Source: Thermococcus sp. | GTDB taxonomy: Archaea > Methanobacteriota_B > Thermococci > Thermococcales > Thermococcaceae | DNA: 52,373 bases | Reading direction: 5' to 3' | Assembly (NCBI RefSeq): GCF_015521605.1 | Contig: NZ_WANV01000001.1 | Location: 1 to 52,373, forward strand | Shown here: positions 3,961-47,369 of the stretch, piece after piece | Layout of the letters: each line of letters starts with the position of its first letter | Position numbering within the stretch: the stretch's first letter is position 1 | The notes under the pieces: model-generated | What the model saw: only the letters and a program-made list of their open reading frames with translations | The model's database searches: none | What the model was told of the DNA's origin: nothing | Program-made: the position numbers and the translations under genes

Positions 3961-4203
3961 ATGAGGTGGAGGGTTACCGTCATCGTTCGCCTCAGGGAAG
4001 GCCTCAACGACCCCGAGGGGAGGGTCATAGGGAACGCCCTCAGGAACCTCGGGTACGCTGTTGAAAACCTCAGGGTTCCCAAGCACTTCGAGTTCGAGCT
4101 GGAGAGCGAAAACCCGGAGAAAGACGCCGAGGAGATGTGCAGAAAGCTTCTCGCCAATCCGCTGATCCACAGCTGGGAGTACAGGATAGAGCCGGTGAGC
4201 TGA
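3961..4203 (+). CDS. purS: PurS, FGAM synthase small subunit
   Basis: 80-residue PurS that bridges PurL and PurQ in the three-part formylglycinamidine synthase. Begins [14 protein letters not shown] and contains [17 protein letters not shown], typical of the family. The ATG at 3961 is preceded by GAGGTGGT. It is 1 base from purQ and 10 from purP, within one operon. Confidence 0.93.
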
Positions 4204-4204
4204 G

Positions 4205-4876
4205 ATGGTTCGCTTTGCGGTGGTGGTCTTTCCGGGGACGAACTGCGACTTTGAGACTGAGAGGGCCATAAGAAAGGCCGGCGCCGAGGCTGAACGCGTC
4301 TGGTACAAGCGCTCACTCAAGGACTTCGATGGCGTTGTCTTGCCCGGTGGCTTCAGCTACGCCGACTACCTGAGGGCTGGAGCGATAGCCGCTCGGCAGG
4401 AGATAATGGAGGAGGTTAAGGAGTTCGCCCGAGATGGAAGGCCAGTCCTCGGGATATGCAACGGCTTTCAGATTCTCACCGAGGCCGGCCTTTTACCTGG
4501 TGCATTAAGACCTAACAGGGTCCCGCGCTTCCTCTGCAGGTGGGTGCACCTCAGGGTTGCGGATACTGAAACGCCGTTTACATTTCTCTACGAGCCGGGG
4601 GAGGTCATAAGGATGCCGATAGCCCACGCCGAGGGCAACTACTACGTCGACGACCCGTCCAAGGTCAGAATAGTCTTCCAGTACAGCGATGAGGGTGGCG
4701 ATGTAACGGGGAAGGTCAATCCCAACGGCTCGGTTCTCAACATAGCGGCGGTAGCGAACGAAGGGGGAAACGTCCTTGGAACCATGCCACACCCTGAGCG
4801 CGCGAGCGACAGGTTTCTGGGCGGTGAAGATGGGTTGAGAGTTTTCAAGAGCATGGTGGAGTGGGCGAAGAGGTGA
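4205..4876 (+). CDS. purQ: PurQ, FGAM synthase glutaminase subunit
   Basis: Class I glutamine amidotransferase that supplies ammonia to PurL. The nucleophile elbow GICNGFQ puts the catalytic Cys at residue 85; the His/Glu pair is in MPHPERA close to the C-terminus. 223 residues, the usual length. Starts directly after purS, and its last bases overlap or abut the GTG starts possible for purL, so the subunits are translationally coupled. Confidence 0.95.
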
Positions 4877-4881
4877 GTAAA

Positions 4882-8015
<3,134 letters not shown>

Positions 8016-29246: not shown

Positions 29247-30269
29247 TCAGCTGGCCTCATCCCCTTCCGGGGGCAGTGGCTTCCGGTACTCGTATGATAT
29301 CCCGTCGTCTATTATGGCGAAGACCTCGTCCTCACCGTCTATGTAGTGGAGTATTGGCTTGTCCACAAGCTCGAAGGTCGTCTCCAAATCCCTGGGGGTC
29401 TTCAGGACGACCCTCCTCTGGACAGGCCCGGGTGCGCCTTTGACTATATACGGCCTTATCTTGGCCAGCTCATCCTTCGGAGGCCTTGAGGTGTAAACGT
29501 AGCCCACGATGGGTATCAGCATCAGAAATGCCAGCAGTGTGGTAACTACCTTTGCCGTATCGAGGTCGCTGGTTACTCCCAGGACACTAGCGCTGACTTC
29601 TTCCCTGGTCGTCGTTGTCAGGGTTTTTCTTGAGATCTTCTTTGCCTCGGTGAAGTAGTAGAGCCCTGCCCCGCTGTCCCTGATGAGTTCAACTTCGTGG
29701 TCAAAGCTCTCGTTTATCTTCTTTCCATTTACTTCGCCTGTTCCAGAGACTTTTGTAGTTATGATTATCCTTCTGTTAAGCCTCTTAATCCCGAGTTCCT
29801 TGGATACTTCTGAGCTCATATCATCGAGTTTCTCCATGTCGAGTGTGTACTCCGCCGTGAATCCGCCTTCTTGGAGCTTGCCCTTTTTGTCAAAGAGTGT
29901 GTCCTCCCACATAATGACCTCTTCACTGCCTTTGTTAACGTAGTACACGATCTTTCCTGTTACCTCGTACGTGCCGGTGCTGAGCGGTGGGTTTGAATGG
30001 TATGTGTACGTCAGCAGGAACCTGTCAACGAGGGATATGGGGTATTCGTCCCTAAAGACCATGTACCCGTAAATCTCGTTGGACTTGAGATAAGCTGCAT
30101 GCTTCAGCTGTCCCTCTTCCTTAAACGTTCCAAGGGTCTGGGTGTTCACTACGTATGGGCTTGCGCTCATGAGCTTCACGGAATAAAATCCGAACACTAG
30201 GAAGAGCACCAGGAATACTCCCAGGACTTCCTTTCTCCTCATAAACCTAATCAACTTTTCCTTCTTCAT
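29247..30269 (-). CDS. DUF5305-type membrane protein
   Basis: 340 residues: an N-terminal membrane segment (about 16-33), a large extracellular beta-rich domain, a second membrane segment near 245-262 (VVTTLLAFLMLIPIVGYVYTS), and a cytoplasmic tail of about 80 residues. This layout and the motif set (YTYHSNPPLSTGTYEV) fit DUF5305, a family I associate with signal peptidase/TasA-like operons in archaea. Last gene of the operon, with a 4-base overlap to the gene before. Confidence 0.82.
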   Translation of the reverse strand: MKKEKLIRFMRRKEVLGVFLVLFLVFGFYSVKLMSASPYVVNTQTLGTFKEEGQLKHAAYLKSNEIYGYMVFRDEYPISLVDRFLLTYTYHSNPPLSTGTYEVTGKIVYYVNKGSEEVIMWEDTLFDKKGKLQEGGFTAEYTLDMEKLDDMSSEVSKELGIKRLNRRIIITTKVSGTGEVNGKKINESFDHEVELIRDSGAGLYYFTEAKKISRKTLTTTTREEVSASVLGVTSDLDTAKVVTTLLAFLMLIPIVGYVYTSRPPKDELAKIRPYIVKGAPGPVQRRVVLKTPRDLETTFELVDKPILHYIDGEDEVFAIIDDGISYEYRKPLPPEGDEAS

Positions 30270-31315
30270 CCTTCACATTCTCCTGTGCCGTTTTCATGAT
30301 TGGAACCGTGGTCGTGGTTACATTCGCATTCATCATTCTCTTGGCAGCATCCATCGTGGTTATCGCAGCAATCCACGCTCACCACGAGTGCGTTGCTGGT
30401 TATACCGTACTGGACTATGGTCGCCCCTTCGTTCAGGTTGTACTCGCCGCACGAGGTAAACTCCTGCTGCCCTCCGGGGTTCAGCCGGGTGAACACTGTA
30501 ATGTTCATGTGGACGCTCCCCCCCGCTGGAACGGTCACGTTCCACTCCATCTTCGTGGCCGGCTGGGCGTCATTTCCGCCATGTCCCCCTCCACAGTGCC
30601 CTCCGCACTGGTTGCCGTCGTTCGCTGCCCAGAACCTGTACGTGCCGGCACTTGCGCTGGTTCCACCCAGGCTCACGTTGAACTCCGCAGGGATGGTGTC
30701 GGTTATAGTCATGGTGAGGTCATCGTCGGTTGGGTTTGTCACCAGTATCTGGAAGACCCATTCCTGGTACGTTTTCAGGGGTATTCCGCTGGTGTTGCCG
30801 TGGAGGAGTATCTTTTCTATGGTTGGATCGCCCGTCACGACGATTTTTATTGGGCAGGTCTCCACAACGGCGTCTCCGCCATTCCACCGGGCGTGCATTT
30901 CAATCGGGATTACGTACTCTCCCGGTGCGACATCGCTTACGTTCACGTGGCCGGTAAACGTGTACTCATCCCCCGAAGCTATCATCCGCTCGGCGCCGTC
31001 TTCGGTTTCTATGAACACCTCCGCGTTGCCCGGAAGGTCGGAGTAGTCCGGGTCGAGCGATATCCATACGTCCTTCATCTCGTTCAGGTAGTTTCTTACC
31101 GTCAGTGCATCAAAGTCAGTCTCGCTGTACGGGCTGACCTCAACAACTGCGGCATAGCCGTCTTCACAGTCAAAGCCGAGGTACTCCTTATCGTGGGGAA
31201 CAACGGCAACTTTGACTTCCCTCGATGCTTCAAAGTTTACAAAGGTTCCACTGGAGCCTACGAGAATCAGCGATGCCAGTGCGAACGTTATAATAATTGA
31301 GAACAGAGCTTTCAT
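30266..31315 (-). CDS. DUF1102/TasA-like secreted protein with Cys/His-rich tail
   Basis: 349 residues. The signal-peptide region (ALASLILVGSSG) leads to TFVNFEASREVKVAVVPHDKEY, the camelysin/TasA-like N-terminus shared with the other fibre genes. A middle region (DPTIEKILLHGN...NPTDDDLTMTITDTIPAEF) looks like an Ig-like repeat. It contains NQCGGHCGGGHGG, and the last ~35 residues (CCDNHDGCC...CECNHDHGSNHENG) are packed with Cys and His, a likely metal-binding or crosslinking tail. Coupled to the signal peptidase gene by a 4-base overlap. Confidence 0.8.
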   Translation of the reverse strand: MKALFSIIITFALASLILVGSSGTFVNFEASREVKVAVVPHDKEYLGFDCEDGYAAVVEVSPYSETDFDALTVRNYLNEMKDVWISLDPDYSDLPGNAEVFIETEDGAERMIASGDEYTFTGHVNVSDVAPGEYVIPIEMHARWNGGDAVVETCPIKIVVTGDPTIEKILLHGNTSGIPLKTYQEWVFQILVTNPTDDDLTMTITDTIPAEFNVSLGGTSASAGTYRFWAANDGNQCGGHCGGGHGGNDAQPATKMEWNVTVPAGGSVHMNITVFTRLNPGGQQEFTSCGEYNLNEGATIVQYGITSNALVVSVDCCDNHDGCCQENDECECNHDHGSNHENGTGECEG

Positions 31316-32382
31316 ATCCTAAACACCTCCGATATCCCTCTACGGAAGGAAGTTCTCCTTCTCTTGATTCTAAGAACATCCTCGTTTCCGATGCCTGAGA
31401 TTACGTAGAACGCCCCAAGGAACAGGGAAAGTTCTACCAGAATGGCGAGGAGAGGCATAACCGGGTTGATACCGTACAGGTACGTGATCACGGACTTCGG
31501 GAGCAGGGGCATGTACGCGTTTATCCTGACCTTGGCCACGTATATTGAGGTTCTTTTTGGGGCGGTTACACCCACCACTATGCTCTTCTCCTCCCCTTTA
31601 CTGAGTTCAAACTGGGTCTCGGTTATGTAATCAATATCGGGCGAACTCGCGGAGATGTAGTAGTACATCGGATAAAAGTTCTTGTTCTGGAGGGATATCT
31701 CCTGCTCAAAGCTCTCCCCGGGCAGATACCACCCTTCTCGTACACCTCCAGCGGATGTTACTGCGTATTCAATTGGGAACATCTGCCAGGATACAAAGGT
31801 CGCGGCCGAAACCATGACCAGAAGGAGAACGGCCGATAGTAGGTAGAGGGTCTTGAACTTGATACGAATGAACCGTTTTCCCCGTTTCCTTTTTTCCTTC
31901 TCCCCCCCGGTGAATGCAAAGACACCAAAAATCACCAGCAGGCCTGCTATGATCATTTTTCCTTGATCCGATAAGTTGGCATCGTTCAGGTACAGTCCCA
32001 ATTTAGGCACGGTTATGGGGTTTCCGTTTATGGCTATAACCTTGCCACCTATCTGCCCCTCTGTTATTGGGGGTGTGTTTCTGCTCTGCTGGTCGGTTGC
32101 TATGTTGTTGTCTCCTCTCGTGAGATATCCCGCCTCCACTATTCCCACTACCCTGTGAACGGTCCATGTTCCACCGGCGTTAAACACGACTATGTCCCCA
32201 ACCTGCGGATTGCGCGCAAACGGGTTTATGAAAAACACGTCTCCCTTGTCTATGGTGGGCGACATGCTGCTGGAGTACGCGTACGAGATGAAAACTGGCC
32301 TGTCCATAAGAACCCCAAGAAGTGAGCCGATGAGAATTATCCCAACGAACGCAAGAATTCCGTATTCGATTATTTTATTCAT
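31312..32382 (-). CDS. Signal peptidase I (archaeal S26B) dedicated to the TasA-like operon
   Basis: 356 residues. Catalytic Ser39 in SSMSP, His76 in TVHRVVG and Asp91 in TRGDNN: the Ser-His-Asp arrangement of archaeal/eukaryotic type signal peptidases. After about 150 residues there are extra membrane segments (about 140-160 and 175-195), an extracellular domain and a last membrane segment near 320. Longer than a housekeeping signal peptidase (about 150-200). Its place among TasA-like genes recalls the sipW-tasA arrangement of Bacillus. It probably processes the fibre proteins. Confidence 0.88.
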   Translation of the reverse strand: MNKIIEYGILAFVGIILIGSLLGVLMDRPVFISYAYSSSMSPTIDKGDVFFINPFARNPQVGDIVVFNAGGTWTVHRVVGIVEAGYLTRGDNNIATDQQSRNTPPITEGQIGGKVIAINGNPITVPKLGLYLNDANLSDQGKMIIAGLLVIFGVFAFTGGEKEKRKRGKRFIRIKFKTLYLLSAVLLLVMVSAATFVSWQMFPIEYAVTSAGGVREGWYLPGESFEQEISLQNKNFYPMYYYISASSPDIDYITETQFELSKGEEKSIVVGVTAPKRTSIYVAKVRINAYMPLLPKSVITYLYGINPVMPLLAILVELSLFLGAFYVISGIGNEDVLRIKRRRTSFRRGISEVFRI

Positions 32383-32891
32383 TCACAACCGCCCCCCTGA
32401 GCGGTTATTACAATGCTCGTCTCGTAGTCCCCGAGTTCTAGCCCGTGGGTATCGAAGCGCATCCCTACGTCAACGCTCTGGTTTGCCTGAATTTCTACCC
32501 TGAGTTCACTGCTCCAGTTGCCGCTGAAGTTACTTTCAAAAAATCCGATGTTCTCTGAGTTTGAGGATATCAGAACGCATATCACAGGGAAGCCGGTTTC
32601 GCTCTCGTTATTTTCCACGGTGAAAATCCTGTTGAAGGTGTAAACGCTGTCCTTGCTGAGTCCCTTCCCGTAGCCCGGGTAGAGGGGACTCTGGTCGCTT
32701 ATTTCAACCCTCAAAAACCCGTCACTCAGGTAAGCGTAAGGCGGGAGGGGGGTCTCAATGGGAATGCCGGCTCCATCGGGAACACCGTATACAACCACCG
32801 GTATGGCATCACCGGGATATATCGTGCCAATCCCTATTATCAATAGAATCGCCAGTCCAACTCCAGTCATAATTTTGGTTCTTGTTCCCAT
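32379..32891 (-). CDS. TasA-like secreted protein 3
   Basis: 170 residues. A hydrophobic signal or anchor (TGVGLAILLIIGIGTIYPG) is followed by a beta-rich domain with YAYLSDGFLRVEISDQSP, the same block as in the two upstream proteins (PYAYLNDGGQLVIDF; QYAFIDDDGTLVVDL). ATG at 32891 has GAGGGGGA upstream; the ATG at 32906 does not. Ends ITAQGGGCE with a C-terminal Cys. Overlaps the signal peptidase start by 4 bases. Confidence 0.8.
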   Translation of the reverse strand: MGTRTKIMTGVGLAILLIIGIGTIYPGDAIPVVVYGVPDGAGIPIETPLPPYAYLSDGFLRVEISDQSPLYPGYGKGLSKDSVYTFNRIFTVENNESETGFPVICVLISSNSENIGFFESNFSGNWSSELRVEIQANQSVDVGMRFDTHGLELGDYETSIVITAQGGGCE

Positions 32892-32921
32892 TCTTTTCCC
32901 CCTCATAATAATTTATGGAAA

Positions 32922-32935
32922 GGAGCAAATGCTCC
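32922..32935 (-). repeat. Hairpin between TasA-like genes 2 and 3
   Basis: GGAGCA and TGCTCC, a perfect 6-bp inverted repeat with a 2-base loop, in the only gap (about 60 bases) inside the operon. It could stabilise or partly terminate the upstream mRNA so that the fibre subunits are made in excess over the peptidase. Confidence 0.35.
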
Positions 32936-32953
32936 GAAATGAAACCATTCTAT

Positions 32954-33508
32954 TCAGTCTACCTCAGGGCAGGCTCCCGCGTAGGCGGTTATTGAGAGCT
33001 TTCCGTCGAACATGTCGCCGTCAACCATGTCGGTGCTGTCAAGGATCATTCCAATCTCTACCATGTCACCGGGCATCACGGTGAAAGTCAACGCAGTTGC
33101 TCCCGGCTGTCCCGTGTAGTCACCAGTGAAGAACAGTATGTTGCCACCGGCGCCTTCATACTCGCTTGCCGAGTACTGAATGTGAACACAGATGGGCATG
33201 TCCTCCCAAAGGTCGTTGCTCACGCCGAAAACTCCCTTGAAAACGTATGTGCTGTTCGGGCTCACACCCATACCAAAGCCTTCCATCCAGTTGCTGTTGC
33301 CAGTGCTCAGGTCAACAACAAGGGTGCCGTCATCGTCTATGAAGGCATACTGCTGAAGGGGAACCAGATCAATGAACTCGACGTCGTCAGGGACAACGGC
33401 CACATGGACGTCTCTGCTGGCCTCAAAGTACGCGAAGTGCGCACTGCTGGCCGTAACGGCTATGAGTATTCCCGCTATCAGTATGAACATCCCTAGTATT
33501 TTTCTCAT
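32954..33508 (-). CDS. TasA/camelysin-like (DUF1102) fibre protein 2
   Basis: 184 residues. Signal peptide MRKILGMFILIAGILIAVTASSA, then HFAYFEASRDVHVAVVPDDVEFIDL, the DUF1102 start. ATG at 33508 overlaps the previous stop by 4 bases and has GGGGGCGG upstream. Ends with a Cys near the C-terminus (YAGACPEVD), which matches the terminal Cys in the other members. Confidence 0.86.
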   Translation of the reverse strand: MRKILGMFILIAGILIAVTASSAHFAYFEASRDVHVAVVPDDVEFIDLVPLQQYAFIDDDGTLVVDLSTGNSNWMEGFGMGVSPNSTYVFKGVFGVSNDLWEDMPICVHIQYSASEYEGAGGNILFFTGDYTGQPGATALTFTVMPGDMVEIGMILDSTDMVDGDMFDGKLSITAYAGACPEVD

Positions 33509-34173
33509 TGCGGTCCGCCCCCTGCGTTGCACTCAAACGGTGCTTCTCCAACTGGGTATGCCTCAATGGTTATGACTCCGTAGAGGTCGCCATCGTTGAC
33601 GTCGTCGGGTCCGGCCAACTCCATGCCGATTCCCAGGGCCTCGCCAGGTGCTAGGTAGAAGCAGACATCCACTTTAGCGCTGTCCGAGCTGTATGCAGCG
33701 CCGTTACCATCGGTCTTGTACATCCTCCACATGCCGTCTCCGTCCTTGGTGGGGTTGTAGAACTTGATGTTGTTGTTGCTTGAAGTCACTCTAACAACAA
33801 TGTACTCGTTCTCCCAGAGGTGGTTGCTGACGTTGAACACGTGGTCAAAGTTGTATCTTGACTTCGGGCTGATACCGAGTCCCTTTGCTGGGATCGACAT
33901 GTTCTGCTCTTCGTCCCATACCCACCAGCTCTCATTTTCCCAGCCAGGCCAGTTCGGGTTGTCCGCTGAGAAGTCAATAACAAGTTGCCCCCCATCGTTA
34001 AGGTACGCGTAGGGCTGAACCGGCGTCAGGTCGATGAGCTCATTATCGTCTGAAACGACACTGATATGGACGCTTCTCTGAGCCTCGTAGTCCCTGAAGG
34101 TTGCGCTAGTGCCTAGTGCAAAGGCCGCCGCGATCATCAGCCCCAGCATACCGAGGGCCAAAATTTTCTTCAT
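33505..34173 (-). CDS. TasA/camelysin-like (DUF1102) fibre protein 1
   Basis: 222 residues. Signal peptide MKKILALGMLGLMIAAAFALGTSA, then TFRDYEAQRSVHISVVSDDNELIDL, characteristic of archaeal DUF1102 proteins related to bacterial TasA and to archaeal bundling pili built by donor-strand complementation. First gene of the operon. ATG at 34173 with GGAGGA upstream; an ATG at 34197 lacks a good site. The likely major fibre subunit. Confidence 0.86.
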   Translation of the reverse strand: MKKILALGMLGLMIAAAFALGTSATFRDYEAQRSVHISVVSDDNELIDLTPVQPYAYLNDGGQLVIDFSADNPNWPGWENESWWVWDEEQNMSIPAKGLGISPKSRYNFDHVFNVSNHLWENEYIVVRVTSSNNNIKFYNPTKDGDGMWRMYKTDGNGAAYSSDSAKVDVCFYLAPGEALGIGMELAGPDDVNDGDLYGVITIEAYPVGEAPFECNAGGGPQ

Positions 34174-34255
34174 GGTACATTCCTCCATGTTTTCCAAACC
34201 GACACCCTAGGCAGAGGCCATCATAGGGATGCCTCATTGAGTGTAGTGAAGTCAA

Positions 34256-34265
34256 CCTATATAGT
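34256..34265 (-). promoter_or_regulatory. TATA box of the TasA-like operon
   Basis: ACTATATAGG on the minus strand, about 83-92 bases before the ATG at 34173. It implies a leader of about 60 bases. Confidence 0.55.
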
Positions 34266-34284
34266 AAATTCCGGCTTACTGGGT

Positions 34285-34301
34285 GGTAATCTCTCATTAC
34301 C
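34285..34301. promoter_or_regulatory. Inverted repeat upstream of the TasA-like promoter
   Basis: GGTAAT-N5-ATTACC, a perfect dyad about 20 bases upstream of the TATA box. Candidate binding site for one of the two wHTH proteins encoded just upstream. Confidence 0.45.
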
Positions 34302-34341: not shown

Positions 34342-34357
34342 TAGCAGTAATCTGCTA
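34342..34357. repeat. Inverted repeat at the regulator stop codon
   Basis: TAGCAG-TAAT-CTGCTA, a perfect 6-bp dyad that includes the stop codon of the membrane regulator gene. Either an end hairpin or a second operator for the fibre operon. Confidence 0.4.
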
Positions 34358-34789
34358 AAACAGCCTCTTAATCTTCTTGTGGTGAATTATGCTTATGCCC
34401 AGATACACCACGGCAGCCAGCAATAAAGGCATGCTGCCGAGATACCAACCCGCGATAATGAAAATTATCGATGTCCCCATATAGAAGGTGCTCCAGCTTA
34501 TGTCGTGCTTGTTGACAACCTCCATGTAGACGGTTACATCTTCCGGAATCTTCAGGAGCGTAACAACGCCGTGGTTGAAGGTTATGACGCCCTCCCTTTC
34601 CAGTTTGGGGATGTGCGTCTGAACCAGGCTGACGTAGACGCTTTTCCTGTGCCTCCGGTTGGTGTCCCCTTCCCTTTCGGCTATGTATTCCACGAGTTCC
34701 CGGAGTTCTGCCCTGCCCTCCTTTTCTTTTAGGTACTCTATCATCAGCATTCTTCTGTCGTTCCCCAGTATTGCGGTCGTTGCACCCAT
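34355..34789 (-). CDS. Membrane-bound winged-helix regulator (DUF7344-like)
   Basis: 144 residues: N-terminal wHTH (LGNDRRMLMIEYLKEKEG...VSLVQTHIPKLEREGVI) to about residue 85, then two membrane segments (about 100-118 and 120-135). Regulators with a DNA-binding head and membrane tail can sense envelope state. Start ATG at 34789 follows CGGTGAT, 4 bases after the preceding regulator gene. Likely controls the adjacent fibre operon. Confidence 0.82.
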   Translation of the reverse strand: MGATTAILGNDRRMLMIEYLKEKEGRAELRELVEYIAEREGDTNRRHRKSVYVSLVQTHIPKLEREGVITFNHGVVTLLKIPEDVTVYMEVVNKHDISWSTFYMGTSIIFIIAGWYLGSMPLLLAAVVYLGISIIHHKKIKRLF

Positions 34790-34793
34790 GATA

Positions 34794-35009
34794 TCACCGC
34801 AGCCTGTAATGCTTCCTCTTATTACCGTTTGTGTAGAATGCTTCTACTTTTTTCTGCTCCACGAGCTTCCTGAGAGTCCTCTCAACCTTCTGCCTTGTGC
34901 AGAAAATACCCCGTTCGTTGAGGAACCGAGTCAGAAACGCAACACTGAGCGATCCGTGGGTTCTGAGGAGGTTTATAATCTCAACCTCCAGGTTAACTAC
35001 GTTGCTCAC
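34794..35009 (-). CDS. Small winged-helix DNA-binding protein
   Basis: 71 residues. VEIINLLRTHGSLSVAFLTRFLNERGIFCTRQKVERTLRKLVEQKKVEAFY fits a wHTH with a wing ending KHYRLR. GTG start at 35009 with GGGGTGAGG upstream. First gene of a two-gene regulator unit. An inverted repeat covers the presumed transcription start, suggesting self-repression. Confidence 0.8.
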   Translation of the reverse strand: MSNVVNLEVEIINLLRTHGSLSVAFLTRFLNERGIFCTRQKVERTLRKLVEQKKVEAFYTNGNKRKHYRLR

Positions 35010-42272: not shown

Positions 42273-43067
42273 ATGAAGGTGGCATACGTCCAGATGGAGC
42301 CGGTTCTCCTTGAGCCCGAGGTGAACTACTCCAGGGCAGAGGAGATGATTCGCGAGGCCGTGGATAGGGGGGCCAAACTCGTGGTTTTGCCGGAGCTCTT
42401 TGATACCGGCTACAACTTCGAGAGCAGGAGTGAGGTCGAGGAAGTGGCCGGGGAGATACCGGACGGCCCCACTACGCGGTTTCTGGCCGAGCTTTCACGT
42501 GAACTTGACGTGTTCATAGTTGCCGGGACGGCCGAAAAGGACGAGAAGGGCAGGCTCTACAACTCCGCCGTGATGACGGGCCCGATAGGTAGCGGCTACA
42601 TAGGTAAGTACCGCAAGGTTCACCTGTTCTACCGGGAGAAGCTCTTCTTTGAGCCGGGCAACCTCGGCTTTCACGTCTTCAATATCGGCATCGCCAAGGT
42701 TGGGGTGATGATATGTTTTGACTGGTTCTTCCCGGAATCTGCCAGAACCCTTGCCCTGAAGGGGGCTGACATCATAGCTCACCCGAGCAACCTCGTGATG
42801 CCCTACGCCCCGAGGGCGATGCCGATCAGAGCTCTGGAGAACCGTGTTTACACTATAACCGCCAACAGAATAGGCGAGGAAAGGGGTCTGCGCTTTATAG
42901 GCAAGAGCACGATAGCATCACCCAGGGCCGAGGTGCTGGCCGTGGGGAGCGAGGATAAAGAAGAGGTCGCCGTCGTCGAGGTTGACCTTGAGCTTGCGAG
43001 GGACAAGCGGCTCAACGACATCAACGACATCTTCAGGGACAGACGACCTGAGTTCTACTCACTGTGA
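42273..43067 (+). CDS. Nitrilase-superfamily amidohydrolase
   Basis: 264 residues. Triad Glu41 (LPELFDTGY), Lys115 (YRKVHLF) and Cys148 (MICFDWFFPE). Close in length and motifs to the Pyrococcus abyssi nitrilase, which acts on small aliphatic nitriles; omega-amidase or carbamoylase activity cannot be excluded. ATG at 42273 with GAGTGGTGAT upstream. Single gene. Confidence 0.92.
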   Translation: MKVAYVQMEPVLLEPEVNYSRAEEMIREAVDRGAKLVVLPELFDTGYNFESRSEVEEVAGEIPDGPTTRFLAELSRELDVFIVAGTAEKDEKGRLYNSAVMTGPIGSGYIGKYRKVHLFYREKLFFEPGNLGFHVFNIGIAKVGVMICFDWFFPESARTLALKGADIIAHPSNLVMPYAPRAMPIRALENRVYTITANRIGEERGLRFIGKSTIASPRAEVLAVGSEDKEEVAVVEVDLELARDKRLNDINDIFRDRRPEFYSL

Positions 43068-43140
43068 TAATATCTGTTTTATCCCCCTCTCTGTATTTTG
43101 GAATGTTTGCATCTTTTTTGCCCCAGTTATGGGACGTTAC

Positions 43141-43166
43141 CAACCATGTTGTAATGTTGCCAACAT
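43141..43166. repeat. Two overlapping-style dyads
   Basis: CAAC-CAT-GTTG (43141-43151) followed by ATGTTG-C-CAACAT (43154-43166). They share the half-site CAAC/GTTG in the 239-bp gene-free gap before the gene at 43307. No other feature in that gap is convincing apart from the TATA-like GTATTTTAAG at 43276-43285. Confidence 0.35.
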
Positions 43167-43306
43167 CGGTGGGGCGGTATTCAATAACATCCAATGGAAT
43201 TAACCACCCGTTGGAAAATCTACATAAAACTCGCTCCAGAGGGCTCTATTCCTCGTTTGGTGTGCCCTTCCGAAAGTATTTTAAGAACTAAGGCAATATG
43301 TGGTAG

Positions 43307-43696
43307 ATGATGGCGAGAAAAAGGAGGTACATCCTTTTGATTGCACCCGTTGCGATTGCCCTCGTGATTGGGCTAGTGGTTAATGCCGAGATGTTCCCGG
43401 CTGACTATTCCTATCAGAAGGGACTCTTCGGGCCCCATAACGTCCAGGCCGAGCTTCTTCCGGCGAATTCCCATATACGAGGCCAGATAATAGCCAAGAA
43501 TCCGTTTTCGGCCTATGTGGTCGTCTCAAAGTCCGGCTACTTTGAGGACGTTAACGGGGACAACGTCGTTCTCAGCTGGGAAAACGTCACGGAGGTTGAC
43601 CTTGATTTCAACGTCCCCTCTGGGAACTACTATCTCGTAATCAAAAACGGCAACGTTAGCCAGGAAATAGAGATGAGGTTCAAAGCGGACGGCTGA
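43307..43696 (+). CDS. Membrane-anchored secreted protein, 129 residues
   Basis: One N-terminal membrane segment (YILLIAPVAIALVIGLVVNA) then a small beta-rich outside domain with RGQIIAKNPFSAYVVVSKSG and NGNVSQEIEMRF. ATG at 43307 (or 43310) is close to leaderless distance from GTATTTTAAG. Its 3' end overlaps the convergent methyltransferase by 17 bases. No family recognised. Confidence 0.7.
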   Translation: MMARKRRYILLIAPVAIALVIGLVVNAEMFPADYSYQKGLFGPHNVQAELLPANSHIRGQIIAKNPFSAYVVVSKSGYFEDVNGDNVVLSWENVTEVDLDFNVPSGNYYLVIKNGNVSQEIEMRFKADG

Positions 43697-44480
43697 AGTC
43701 CTCCAGCACAAGCCTGGCGATGTCCTTTCTTGGCTTTTTGAAGTACAGCACACCCCGGACATTTTCGACGCCTCTGCTCTCGCCGGGTACGAGTTTTGCC
43801 TCTCTGAAGAAGACCCTCCCGATTGCAAGCTGTGTTGAGATGTCCCAGTAATGAAAATCGACGTCGGTTATCTTTTTGAACCCCGGAAGGATGTAGTAGC
43901 CCCTTCTGAACGTCCCCCTGACGAAGTCGTAGCCCTCGTGCATGGAGGCGATGGTGTACCCTTCCCTCCTGCCCTCCACCAGGAACTTCCGGTAGCCAGC
44001 GCGGTACATTACCCAGTAAACCCTGTCCGTGTCCTCTACCAGGAAAACACCATCGTCGCTGAGCGCAAGGGCAACTCCAGCGAACAGCCTGACCGCGTCG
44101 AAGGGGTCGAAGTGGGGCATGGTAAAGCCCCACAGCACGGCAACGTCGTGCTCCTCCACCAACTTCCAAACTTCCCTGGCATCGCCCTGAACCAGTTTCA
44201 GTTCGGGCTTTACCCCGGCCAACTTAAGCCACTCCCTCGCCAGGTCGAGGTCCTCTTTTCTGGCATCGAGGAGGGTTAGGAGTTTGGCGCTGGTTACCTT
44301 TGCGAGGGCAACGCCCGCTATTCCTGTTCCCGCGCATATGTCCAGAACCCGAGCTTTTGACGGCAGCTCGCCTGCTATGCTCCTGAAGAACTCCTCTATC
44401 TTTTCGAATCTTTCCCTCGCTCTTTTGTCCCCCGGGTTCATCCGCCAGTTGATGTAGCGGTAGAGGTCCACCAGGGACAT
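43680..44480 (-). CDS. Class I SAM-dependent methyltransferase
   Basis: 266 residues. Motif I VLDICAGTGIAGVALA at about 45-60; motif II-like LLTLLDARKEDL; then VLWGFTMPHFDPFDAV. Substrate unknown. ATG at 44480 is at near-leaderless distance from TATA-like GATTTAAATAATTTC (44506-44520). Divergent from the paralogue operon. Confidence 0.82.
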   Translation of the reverse strand: MSLVDLYRYINWRMNPGDKRARERFEKIEEFFRSIAGELPSKARVLDICAGTGIAGVALAKVTSAKLLTLLDARKEDLDLAREWLKLAGVKPELKLVQGDAREVWKLVEEHDVAVLWGFTMPHFDPFDAVRLFAGVALALSDDGVFLVEDTDRVYWVMYRAGYRKFLVEGRREGYTIASMHEGYDFVRGTFRRGYYILPGFKKITDVDFHYWDISTQLAIGRVFFREAKLVPGESRGVENVRGVLYFKKPRKDIARLVLEDFSRPL

Positions 44481-44529
44481 GCCATCACCACGATGATGAA
44501 TGTGTGAAATTATTTAAATCCATCGAAAG

Positions 44530-44539
44530 GCTTAAATAT
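44530..44539 (+). promoter_or_regulatory. TATA box of the four-paralogue operon
   Basis: GCTTAAATAT, about 25 bases upstream of the presumed transcript start near 44563. Confidence 0.6.
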
Positions 44540-44541
44540 TT

Positions 44542-44563
44542 TGTCAACTTACATAAGTTGACA
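44542..44563. promoter_or_regulatory. Operator: perfect 9-bp inverted repeat
   Basis: TGTCAACTT-ACAT-AAGTTGACA, between the TATA box and the start codon (44574), covering the presumed transcription start. Binding here would block RNA polymerase. The HTH gene at the end of the operon is the obvious candidate ligand. Confidence 0.65.
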
Positions 44564-44573
44564 AGGTGAAAAT

Positions 44574-45239
44574 ATGCGGAGTGGAAAGGAGAGGTGTTAC
44601 AACATAGTGCTCTTTATAAGTCTGCTTCTCTTCACCGCTGGAGTCTTATTCAACGAGCTAGCTCTGATGCTGATTTCTTTCGTAACCTTAATTGGTGGAG
44701 GTGTCCTCTTTTATGGCCATGAGGCAAGAATTGAAAATGGCAAGCTTATCCTAGAATGGGGACTGATCCTTAAACGTCGCAGGGAGATAAGCGTGGGAGA
44801 GATAGTGGATTTGATAGATGCGAATTCCAACAGATATTTTGTTATGGCAAAGTACTACCCTGACATCCTGCTTCTCCCGATGGGAATCATTGCTGGGGGT
44901 CCGGTGCTTTTAGAGACAGAATTCCCCTGGGTTGGGCTAGCATGGATTCTGATTGGTGGCATTAAGGTAATAACATATCTTTTTCCACCGGCTGAAAAAA
45001 GAAGGGCTGCCCTATTAACGCTGGTCCTTACAGGTATCGTCGTGACGGTAGCATACCTCATTGGGACGTTCATTGTCCCCCTGATATCCTTTGGGATCGT
45101 AATGGCTGGTATTATATGGGAGGGGGGCACGGTATTAACGAATACACTTGTACTAGTTACTGAGAAGGGGATTTACTCTGTGAGGTATTCATCGAAATTG
45201 GAGTGGGAAAAGCTGATGGGACTACTGGGGGGTGAGTGA
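44574..45239 (+). CDS. Membrane protein paralogue A (four-paralogue operon)
   Basis: 221 residues. Two N-terminal membrane segments (about 10-48), then the family block ARIENGKLILEWGLILKRRREISVGEIVDLID (about 50-81), three or four more membrane segments, and a C-terminal block LVTEKGIYSVRYSS followed by a helix. The middle and end blocks together look like a split PH-like membrane domain. ATG at 44574 with AAGGTGAAA upstream. First gene of the operon; same architecture as the next three. Function unknown. Confidence 0.78.
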   Translation: MRSGKERCYNIVLFISLLLFTAGVLFNELALMLISFVTLIGGGVLFYGHEARIENGKLILEWGLILKRRREISVGEIVDLIDANSNRYFVMAKYYPDILLLPMGIIAGGPVLLETEFPWVGLAWILIGGIKVITYLFPPAEKRRAALLTLVLTGIVVTVAYLIGTFIVPLISFGIVMAGIIWEGGTVLTNTLVLVTEKGIYSVRYSSKLEWEKLMGLLGGE

Positions 45240-45240
45240 G

Positions 45241-45942
45241 GTGAGGATTGAGGGGGCATGGCCCGTTTCAGTCCCCAAATTTCTTTTGTTCATCAGATTA
45301 GTGGCTATTGCTCTGCTGGTATCTTTGGGATGGACTATGGTTGAGCTTGGAATAAAGGGATACTATGCCGGTCTCCTGCTCGGTGCTCTGCTCTTTGGGC
45401 TCTCGTCCGGATGGAAGGTTGAACTCTCCGGCAGGGAAGCGACTCTGGTCTACGGGTTTGGAATTCTTAAGGCTAGAACTGGGGAGATTATTGAGATCTC
45501 TGACCTAGGGAACCTGAGGTTTGGAAGGCTTCTGGAACATCTTTACGGGGAATTAATGGCCCCTCCATTCTTTCTCCTCCTTTCAGTTGCTCTGTTTGGT
45601 GTTAGGGGATTCTTGGTGCTCCCGTTTGTCATTTACTGGCTGGTTCTCTTCTTTGTTCTGCTGGCGTTTCCATTGGAGCTTTTGAAAGAACGTGCTGGAA
45701 GACTCATGGTTCTTGCCGTTTTTCTGCCATGGGCTCTTTCGATGCCCCTCTCCTTCATGGGGGTGGAGTTTCAGTGGTTTGGGCTCTCACTGTCAACGTC
45801 GCTCTTCGGCTTCTGGTTCCTGGTTGGATTTGTATCAAGGGATTACGTTCTTCTGCGGGGGGAACTTGGGGAGTTCTTAGTGGCCTGCAGTAACGCTGGG
45901 AGGATTATAACTGCACTGGCGGGTGAGGAGAATGGCCCTTAG
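45241..45942 (+). CDS. Membrane protein paralogue B
   Basis: 233 residues from GTG at 45241, with GGGGGGTGA 5 bases upstream; a GTG at 45232 is possible. Family block WKVELSGREATLVYGFGILKARTGEIIEISDL, several membrane segments, and a C-terminal end YVLLRGELGEFLVACSNAGRIITAL. It is the most diverged of the four in the first block. 1 base after paralogue A. Confidence 0.76.
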   Translation: MRIEGAWPVSVPKFLLFIRLVAIALLVSLGWTMVELGIKGYYAGLLLGALLFGLSSGWKVELSGREATLVYGFGILKARTGEIIEISDLGNLRFGRLLEHLYGELMAPPFFLLLSVALFGVRGFLVLPFVIYWLVLFFVLLAFPLELLKERAGRLMVLAVFLPWALSMPLSFMGVEFQWFGLSLSTSLFGFWFLVGFVSRDYVLLRGELGEFLVACSNAGRIITALAGEENGP

Positions 45943-46681
45943 GCCATCGTATCCCACAGAGGGGAGATATATGGTGTTCTTGGTGGCTTTAACAACTCCA
46001 CTTTACATATTTACTGGCCGAAAAGAACTCGCGCTGGCCTCGAGGGCACTTTTCTGGTCATTTTTGCTGCTGTTTTTCTGGAGACCCGTGCGGATTGAGA
46101 CTGGCAGGATAACCCTGGAGTGGGGCTGGCCAGTTGTCTTTATCCGGAGAGAGATTCCATTTTCGGAGATAAGGGACATCTTCGATTTGACATCATCTGA
46201 GCGGATCAGGCTTATCAATTATTTTAGGGAAATCAAGCTCTTGGCCATACTGTGGATTGCCGTTGGATTCATGGGGATGCTTAAAAACGCGCCACACACT
46301 TCCTTTGTATGGGTCATGTGGATATACTGGGGTTTCTTGACACTTTTTATGCTCTCCTTTACTTACAGAGAGAGATGGGTGCTGGGGATTGTTATCTTTG
46401 CATTGAGCCTGGTAATGGCCCGGTATCTTTACAGAGCCGGCCAGGAAGGAGTGGGGGAATACGTTGCCATAACTGGGGTGTCGCTGGCTCTATTCAGCTT
46501 TGCTGGACTTTTCACCCCGAAAGGCGTTATCCTGGTTACTGAAAATGACACGTACATCCTCTCTTCTTGGGATGATTACGAGGCCAGTAAATTTTTCAAA
46601 GAGCTGGGTTCCTTTCTGGTCGGCATGGCCGGGGATAAGCTTACACAGATAGAGGGGGGTGCTTCCAGTGCGGTTGATTAA
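45932..46681 (+). CDS. Membrane protein paralogue C
   Basis: 249 residues. Block VRIETGRITLEWGWPVVFIRREIPFSEIRDIFDL, membrane segments at about 108-125, 133-150, 158-172 and 185-202, then ILVTENDTYILSSWDDYEASKFFKEL, very like paralogue A's ending. ATG at 45932 overlaps the end of B by 11 bases; GGTGAGGAG lies just upstream. Confidence 0.76.
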   Translation: MALRPSYPTEGRYMVFLVALTTPLYIFTGRKELALASRALFWSFLLLFFWRPVRIETGRITLEWGWPVVFIRREIPFSEIRDIFDLTSSERIRLINYFREIKLLAILWIAVGFMGMLKNAPHTSFVWVMWIYWGFLTLFMLSFTYRERWVLGIVIFALSLVMARYLYRAGQEGVGEYVAITGVSLALFSFAGLFTPKGVILVTENDTYILSSWDDYEASKFFKELGSFLVGMAGDKLTQIEGGASSAVD

Positions 46682-47369
46682 AGCCAGCCCATTTCCGGTT
46701 AGAGGCATTCCTCTCTTCCTATTTTCTGCAGGACTCATCGGTATGTCTATGGCGTGGTACGTCTCCAAGCTTACTGGATTTTTTGTGGAGCCCTTGTTCA
46801 TATTCTCCTGGATTTTATCCGTTGGTATGGGTGCCAAGATTGAAAGTGGAAAGCTCGTTCTCTTCTACGGCTTTTGGGTCATGAAGCAGGAAATAAAGCT
46901 GGACTCTATCGAAGAGTTGTCACTTCTGTCGGGACTTGAATACAGTACTGTACTGAAGCACTTTAAAGCATACACCTTCACGTGGCTGGGAGTGGTTTTA
47001 TGGGCATCAGCTGACCTCTTGGTTTTGAACGGCGGCGAAAATTCTCTCAGGCAGTACATGGACGTCTTTGTCATACTGGCATTTACAGTATTTTTCCTTC
47101 TATTGGCCTTGCCAAAGAACAGAAAACCCCTCCTCCGGCTGGCGGCTTTTTGTTGCGTCGCCTTTCTAATGGTATTTCCCCTTTTTAGGTGGGGTTCTAA
47201 AACACTCGCCCCTGGGATGTTTTTGGCCCTGTTAGTGGCCTTTATGGTTAGGGCATTCCAAAAGGACGATCTCATCCTTATAGTCGCAGGCGGAAAGTCT
47301 TATTTGCTCTCCTCCGATAGGGGTTGGGAGGTTCTAAAACTAATCAGGGAGGCCATGAAAAATGCTTAG
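46668..47369 (+). CDS. Membrane protein paralogue D
   Basis: 233 residues from GTG at 46668 (AGGGGGGTG upstream); GTG 46659 is an alternative. Block AKIESGKLVLFYGFWVMKQEIKLDSIEELSLL; C-terminal LILIVAGGKSYLLSSDRGWEVLKLIREAM. Overlaps C by 14 bases and the HTH gene by 8. Some Cys in the fourth membrane segment (FCCVAF). Confidence 0.76.
   Translation: MRLIKASPFPVRGIPLFLFSAGLIGMSMAWYVSKLTGFFVEPLFIFSWILSVGMGAKIESGKLVLFYGFWVMKQEIKLDSIEELSLLSGLEYSTVLKHFKAYTFTWLGVVLWASADLLVLNGGENSLRQYMDVFVILAFTVFFLLLALPKNRKPLLRLAAFCCVAFLMVFPLFRWGSKTLAPGMFLALLVAFMVRAFQKDDLILIVAGGKSYLLSSDRGWEVLKLIREAMKNA

Follow-up and report, generated by a model that had tools for sequence, protein, structure and literature searches.

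Organization of the locus

In this work, we analyzed a six-gene operon on the minus strand of a 52,373-nucleotide stretch of DNA from Thermococcus sp. (positions 1 to 52,373 of contig NZ_WANV01000001.1, the whole of which is called here the window). The operon spans positions 34173-29247, its genes overlap or are tightly spaced, and it encodes three proteins with a DUF1102 domain (P0001, P0002 and P0003, of types D1a, D1b and D1c), a long type I signal peptidase (SPase; P0004), a secreted protein with a variable tail (P0005, or TAIL) and a DUF5305 protein (P0006) (Table 1). All six genes were found where a first-pass annotation, made from the sequence alone, had placed them, and the products of all but P0005 gave family matches above the respective cut-offs (22.2 bits for DUF1102, 51.85 for TIGR02228 and 29 for PF17231); two upstream helix-turn-helix (HTH) genes and a candidate operator also belong to the locus. 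Judging from the sequence comparisons described below, the locus very probably encodes a donor-strand pilus of the Taf type and has an SPase dedicated to it.

Table 1 Features of the locus (window coordinates; scores are family matches in bits)
Feature	Position	Strand	Remarks
P0008 (HTHb), small HTH protein	34794..35009	-	upstream; adjoins HTHa in most relatives
P0007 (HTHa), DUF7344 winged helix with C-terminal hydrophobic hairpin	34355..34789	-	PF24035, 71.9 (cut-off 27.8)
Palindrome GGTAAT-GAGAG-ATTACC, candidate operator	34285..34301	-	third half-site AGTAA at 34276-34280
TATA-box-like element TACTATATAG	34257..34266	-	comparable position after the palindrome in relatives
P0001 (D1a), DUF1102 pilin-like subunit, SipW-type signal site SA-TF...R	33505..34173	-	135.5
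P0002 (D1b), DUF1102 pilin-like subunit	32954..33508	-	128.6
P0003 (D1c), DUF1102 domain after N-terminal hydrophobic helix	32379..32906	-	102
P0004, archaeal SPase I, Ser39/His76/Asp, Ig-like ectodomain (~205-298) between extra membrane helices	31312..32382	-	TIGR02228, 58.2
P0005 (TAIL), secreted; pilin N-terminus, unrelated core, variable Cys/His tail	30266..31315	-	
P0006, DUF5305: helix, Ig-like ectodomain, helix, small cytosolic alpha/beta domain	29247..30269	-	PF17231, 42.9

Fold and homology of the DUF1102 proteins

In sequence, the DUF1102 proteins are related to the Tafi pilin of haloarchaea and not to TasA. The DUF1102 profile (A3) matched that of haloarchaeal secreted proteins encoded near DUF5305 genes (A4) at 98.9% (E 1.1e-17, 173 columns) and still at 96.8% when the N-terminus was left out, and the haloarchaeal proteins matched the solved Tafi pilin 9p0a with E 6.4e-34. 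Homology to Taf-type pilins thus extends over the whole protein by way of these haloarchaeal intermediates; when PDB sequences were searched directly with the DUF1102 profile, only 9p0a came up (E 0.84, N-terminal part). In agreement, the two best VIA matches of the monomeric D1b model (pLDDT 79.3) were the bundling pilus 7ueg (Z 8.7, 121 aligned residues, 3.1 A) and 9p0a (Z 7.7), followed by MSP/VAP domains and self-complemented FimA with Z ~7, and a Foldseek search of 350,542 chains ranked 7ueg first (E 3.1e-4) and 9p0a eleventh (E 0.03). The N-terminal segment 22-31 was left unplaced in the monomer model, which matches the expectation for a donor strand. The model thus predicts, with modest scores, the pilin fold of the donor-strand archaeal pili (bundling pili and Tafi). 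The fibre reading of the first-pass annotation, which had hinged on folds of the TasA/camelysin type, survives this comparison, the predicted fold being of the bundling-pilus class.

The close kinship with tapA-sipW-tasA that had also been proposed fared differently. Neither PF12389 nor TIGR04088, the camelysin models, matched P0001-P0003 up to E 1, and the DUF1102 profile aligned with the camelysin-type proteins of the same genome at 17.8%, or 0.6% without the N-terminus (hhalign). Membership of the TasA family was rejected on these grounds, and what stands of the earlier claim is a surface-fibre operon with its own SPase.

The same genome has camelysin/TasA-type proteins on another contig, C19 (~42977-47201; L104 4978-9202), together with a transmembrane protein, a TapA-like protein, a SipW-like SPase, a DUF5305 protein and an HTH_45 regulator. 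The scores there were 46.6 bits for PF12389, 41.8 bits for TIGR04088 and 124.8 bits for DUF5305, the camelysin-type profile matched the TasA structures 5of1 and 8aur at ~4e-7, and the SPase reached 101 bits against the SipW model, also below its cut-off of 190. Since these proteins come with an SPase and a DUF5305 protein of their own and the DUF1102 proteins do not match them, the genome carries two separate fibre loci that differ in sequence family, and in both of them an SPase and a DUF5305 protein are encoded.

A putative signal/donor motif and its uneven distribution

Downstream of the hydrophobic stretch, a small-x-Phe-x6-Arg motif is present in every D1a (49 of 49) and D1b (48 of 48) protein and in 43 of 46 TAIL proteins (the three misses being apparently truncated or decayed reading frames), versus ~2% in shuffles and 0 of 937 other open reading frames of the same Thermococcales loci. 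According to PMC10269814, Phe at P2' is a feature of TasA and is poorly cut by the general bacterial SPase. None of the 26 D1c proteins carries the SipW-type motif, their core matches that of D1 at 100% and their N-terminus at 1.6% (hhalign), and in P0003 a hydrophobic stretch covers residues 10-39. Hence, of the three secreted DUF1102 proteins in the first-pass annotation, all have the domain and P0003 is without a SipW-type cleavage site; D1c is probably a membrane-anchored subunit.

P0005 has the opposite composition. Its N-terminus matches those of the pilins at 98.7% and the cores at 1.8-2.5% (hhalign); the likeness to DUF1102 is confined to the first ~45 residues, the family search gave no DUF1102 match, and a DUF11-like region, read by eye, had no Pfam match. 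The Cys/His-rich tail is present solely in close relatives, being elsewhere often absent, short or swapped for another repeat, although a few cysteines are conserved or nearly so in other relatives. The description of P0005 as a fourth DUF1102-like protein with a metal-binding-type tail therefore holds for the N-terminus and fails for the unrelated core and the unconserved tail, and a metal-related tail as the core function is not supported. A TapA-like protein would share the donor segment of the pilins and have a core unable to accept a strand, as TapA is described in PMC10151520; P0005 shares the segment, and its unrelated core may be of that kind. From their sequences, D1c, with the core and a different N-terminus, looks like an anchored acceptor, and TAIL, with the N-terminus and a different core, like a donor attached to some other body.

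A dedicated signal peptidase

P0004 is an archaeal signal peptidase I by family score, and in an alignment of 59 SPases belonging to three types its Ser39 and His76 are 98% conserved; according to PMC10269814, the Ser-His catalytic type is that of SipW. It scored 32.8 bits against the SipW model NF046067 (cut-off 190). Its setting is SipW-like, with a Ser-His type SPase adjoining putative substrates with an aromatic P2'. The extra membrane domains assigned to it earlier are consistent with a Kyte-Doolittle scan, in which four hydrophobic regions were seen, the Ig-like (immunoglobulin-like) domain lying between the third and the fourth.

Four SPase I genes were found in the genome: that of the window, one on C19, and two on contig C36, of 190 and 158 aa. 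Of the order's 94 genomes, 91 have the 158-aa enzyme, including every one of the 74 good ones; the window SPase is present in 72 of these 74, being absent from G026 and G041, both of which keep the small enzyme, and it is decayed in G029. P0004 is thus, as the first-pass annotation had proposed, a dedicated SPase, and the possibility that it is the general one of the cell was rejected.

Many of the genomes in the order, though not all, carry the 190-aa SPase I gene (C36 87330-87899; L105 3328-3900), whose neighbour encodes a secreted protein of 128 aa; perhaps this is another dedicated pair.

The DUF5305 protein and its pairing with long signal peptidases

The DUF5305 assignment of P0006 was confirmed by its PF17231 score. 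The model of this protein (pLDDT 86.4) consists of a helix, a beta-sandwich, a second helix and a small cytosolic domain, and PDB sequence searches with DUF5305 and P0005 gave nothing meaningful. A scan of named genomes yielded 26 DUF5305 loci (in Thermococcus, Methanofastidiosia-type records and many haloarchaea), the nearest named relative being a Thermococcus record. An SPase of 308-460 aa was encoded within ~3.3 kb of DUF5305 in all 26, an Ig-like domain profile of the window type matched 25 of these 26 SPases and no other proteins tested, and a motif-bearing secreted protein was found in 19 of the loci versus 0-4 in the first ten shuffles listed. DUF5305 genes were also found on six haloarchaeal plasmids, with an annotated SPase I beside them on five; on the sixth (Haloarcula pHsi55, L257 ~4000-5120), the gap between listed genes beside DUF5305 holds a long SPase I with an Ig-like domain, so that the pairing is complete on the plasmids as well (6/6). 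The Ig-like profile matched the SPase on five of the six. These are the two DUF5305-led sets; the adjacency in 57 of 57 Thermococcales cases is biased because most of those regions were fetched around SPase matches. The pairing counts leave out two truncated DUF5305 pieces, one with two in-frame stops (G007:C1:190786) and one of 95 aa (G028:C1:1376709), as well as a few matches below the cut-off. The extra proteins had been taken for a peculiarity of the Thermococcales, which does not hold for DUF5305, the usual neighbour of such SPases in haloarchaea and Methanofastidiosia.

Control region

The palindrome GGTAAY-N5-RTTACC that precedes the TATA-like element is the sole exact site in the 2.03 Mb genome. 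In 29 of the 49 upstream regions the site is exact and in 17 it has a single mismatch, giving 46/49 with at most one; of 980 shuffles, 1 did as well. Exact sites occur in 59 of the 94 genomes; a hand count gave 68, of which 50 lie upstream of the operon, as assigned by comparison with coordinates, versus 21 for the reversed pattern. Neither G026 nor G041, both without the operon, has an exact site.

HTHa, which has a hydrophobic segment at 106-137 in P0007 and was found in 50 of 51 window-type loci, is probably a membrane-tethered regulator. HTHb gave no match in the six loci of genus g3 (genera are denoted here by numbers; g3 is probably Pyrococcus) and in a few others. Since HTHa is present at those g3 loci, we infer that it is the likelier binder of the palindrome.

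In G030, an exact palindrome was also observed beside the orthologue of the 190-aa SPase gene of C36 (352290).

Conservation across the Thermococcales

Gene order is kept across six genera. Within the 94 genomes of the order, DUF1102 was found in 87, the SPase in 88, and P0005 and DUF5305 in 78 each. Window-type genes were present in 51 of 61 annotated stretches, and 47 of these 51 loci have the intact order HTH-D1a-D1b-(D1c)-SPase-(TAIL)-DUF5305, 25 with D1c and 22 without it, five of the latter also without a TAIL match. As for the four remaining loci, the copy in G029 is decayed, that in G073 has a split SPase, that in G080 is without subunit genes, and G026 retains a TAIL remnant. In genus g3, a short protein takes the place of TAIL (133 aa and Cys-rich in the one locus fully read).

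At one locus, probably of Pyrococcus (L139, 795-6041), the operon abuts genes whose translations, read by eye, resemble a type IV pilus/archaellum ATPase and a membrane protein.

Discussion

Taken together, these results indicate that the operon probably encodes a Taf-type donor-strand pilus along with a dedicated maturation machine. In the mechanism that we propose, (i) Sec would export the precursors, (ii) the long SPase would cut before x-Phe and so free the N-terminal strand, (iii) the Ig-like domain of the SPase and the DUF5305 ectodomain would act as a chaperone or platform that retains the subunit at the membrane, (iv) the subunits would chain, the strand of each filling the groove of the next, (v) D1c, with a groove, no free strand and an uncut helix, would anchor one end and TAIL, with a strand and no pilin groove, would cap the other, as TapA does for TasA, and (vi) the membrane-tethered winged helix of HTHa would switch the operon via the palindrome. 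The anchor, cap and platform roles are tentative, somewhat short of an even chance. It is tempting to speculate, at the lower end of that range, that the SPase itself is the assembly platform, and that Ig-like SPases and DUF5305 proteins cut and hand over pilins across the Euryarchaeota.

Several observations weigh against this interpretation. The fold scores are modest (Z 7-9) and MSP/VAP domains also reach 7; the TafA equivalog model (NF052520) gave P0001 14.3 bits for a cut-off of 190, so that the window subunits differ from Tafi in falling below the NCBIfam TafA cut-off. Structure searches with the DUF5305 model returned generic Ig-like folds alone, with no named relative, and the Ig-like profile matched none of nine C19-type SPases; therefore, the paralogous system may be without this domain. 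D1c is absent from about half of the loci and is therefore no universal anchor, and locus L144 (G080) keeps SPase, TAIL and DUF5305 with no subunit genes in the locus. Finally, in genus g4 the palindrome at the operon deviates at one or two positions, and the exact site lies elsewhere or is missing.

Among other explanations, the most serious one is that the products are monomeric or S-layer-associated surface proteins, served by the SPase and DUF5305 as a specialised export or quality-control pair. Some motif-bearing haloarchaeal neighbours do carry large extra domains (choice-of-anchor, bactofilin), which would suit such a role; the homology and fold match to solved pilins and the disordered N-terminal segment make it unlikely. 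The reading as a TasA/camelysin fibre operon with SipW, given by the first-pass annotation, draws on a shared broad fold class and a shared logic, with a Ser-His SPase of its own, a Phe at P2' and an accessory protein that only donates. We consider it improbable in view of the missing camelysin-family matches, the low profile scores against the genome's own camelysin proteins, the low SipW score of P0004 and the existence of a real TasA-type locus on C19.

The two narrower alternatives concern single proteins. That metal binding or redox activity is the main task of P0005, the fibre serving metal or electron chemistry, is suggested by the Cys/His-rich tail of this protein and its close relatives and by the few cysteines kept elsewhere; with many relatives having no tail, a short one or a different repeat in its place, we give this little credit. 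The complete catalytic site of P0004 would be compatible with its being the general SPase of the cell, here by chance, but the ubiquity of the 158-aa enzyme, the loss or decay of the window SPase in three genomes and the presence of four SPase I genes make this highly implausible.

A Taf-type pilus locus of this kind would link DUF5305, an unstudied family, and a fused SPase to donor-strand pili across the Euryarchaeota, and implies that a single archaeon can have a Taf-type and, separately, a TasA-type fibre locus, with an SPase-DUF5305 pair in both. A near-unique operator is identified as well. All of this is open to test in a genetically tractable Thermococcus and bears on the open question of how such pili polymerise without an usher in single-membrane cells. 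Were the platform proposal true, signal cleavage would trigger polymerisation by an usher-free route, and DUF5305 would gain its first function. In a literature search, outside of which the Tafi publication fell, we found no paper naming DUF1102 or DUF5305; since NCBIfam already names TafA, TafC and TafE, some of this may already be in print.

Comparison with known systems

Type IV pili are marked by a class III prepilin signal and an assembly ATPase; the general family search, which included no aimed prepilin test, found no such gene among the operon proteins. Chaperone-usher pili share the beta-sandwich and donor-strand logic with the predicted subunits (Z ~7); they differ in that the operon is without an usher gene, and no sequence kinship was seen. 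The Sulfolobus threads (PDB 7PNB) are alike in the same two respects (Z 6.5), again with no sequence kinship seen here. In B. subtilis, the tapA-sipW-tasA operon likewise has a dedicated Ser-His SPase, a substrate with Phe at P2' and a donor-only accessory protein, TapA; by profile, however, its subunits are non-homologous to those of the window, and P0004 differs in carrying an Ig-like domain and pairing with DUF5305. The true counterpart of that operon in this genome is the C19 locus.

The bundling pilus 7ueg, for which donor-strand assembly is reported, gave the best fold match, with only 8% identity. Also close is the Tafi (Taf) pilus of Natrinema sp. J7-2 (PDB 9P0A), which has homologous subunits via the haloarchaeal relatives, the same signal/donor motif and a similar predicted fold, and haloarchaeal Taf-like proteins are found beside DUF5305 and long SPase loci. 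Set against Tafi, two to three subunit genes, the TAIL protein and the operator were seen here in the Thermococcales. Donor-strand archaeal pili are known as a kind, and the fused SPase, the constant DUF5305 partner, the putative split into donor-only and acceptor-only subunits and the candidate operator make the window locus a variant of them.

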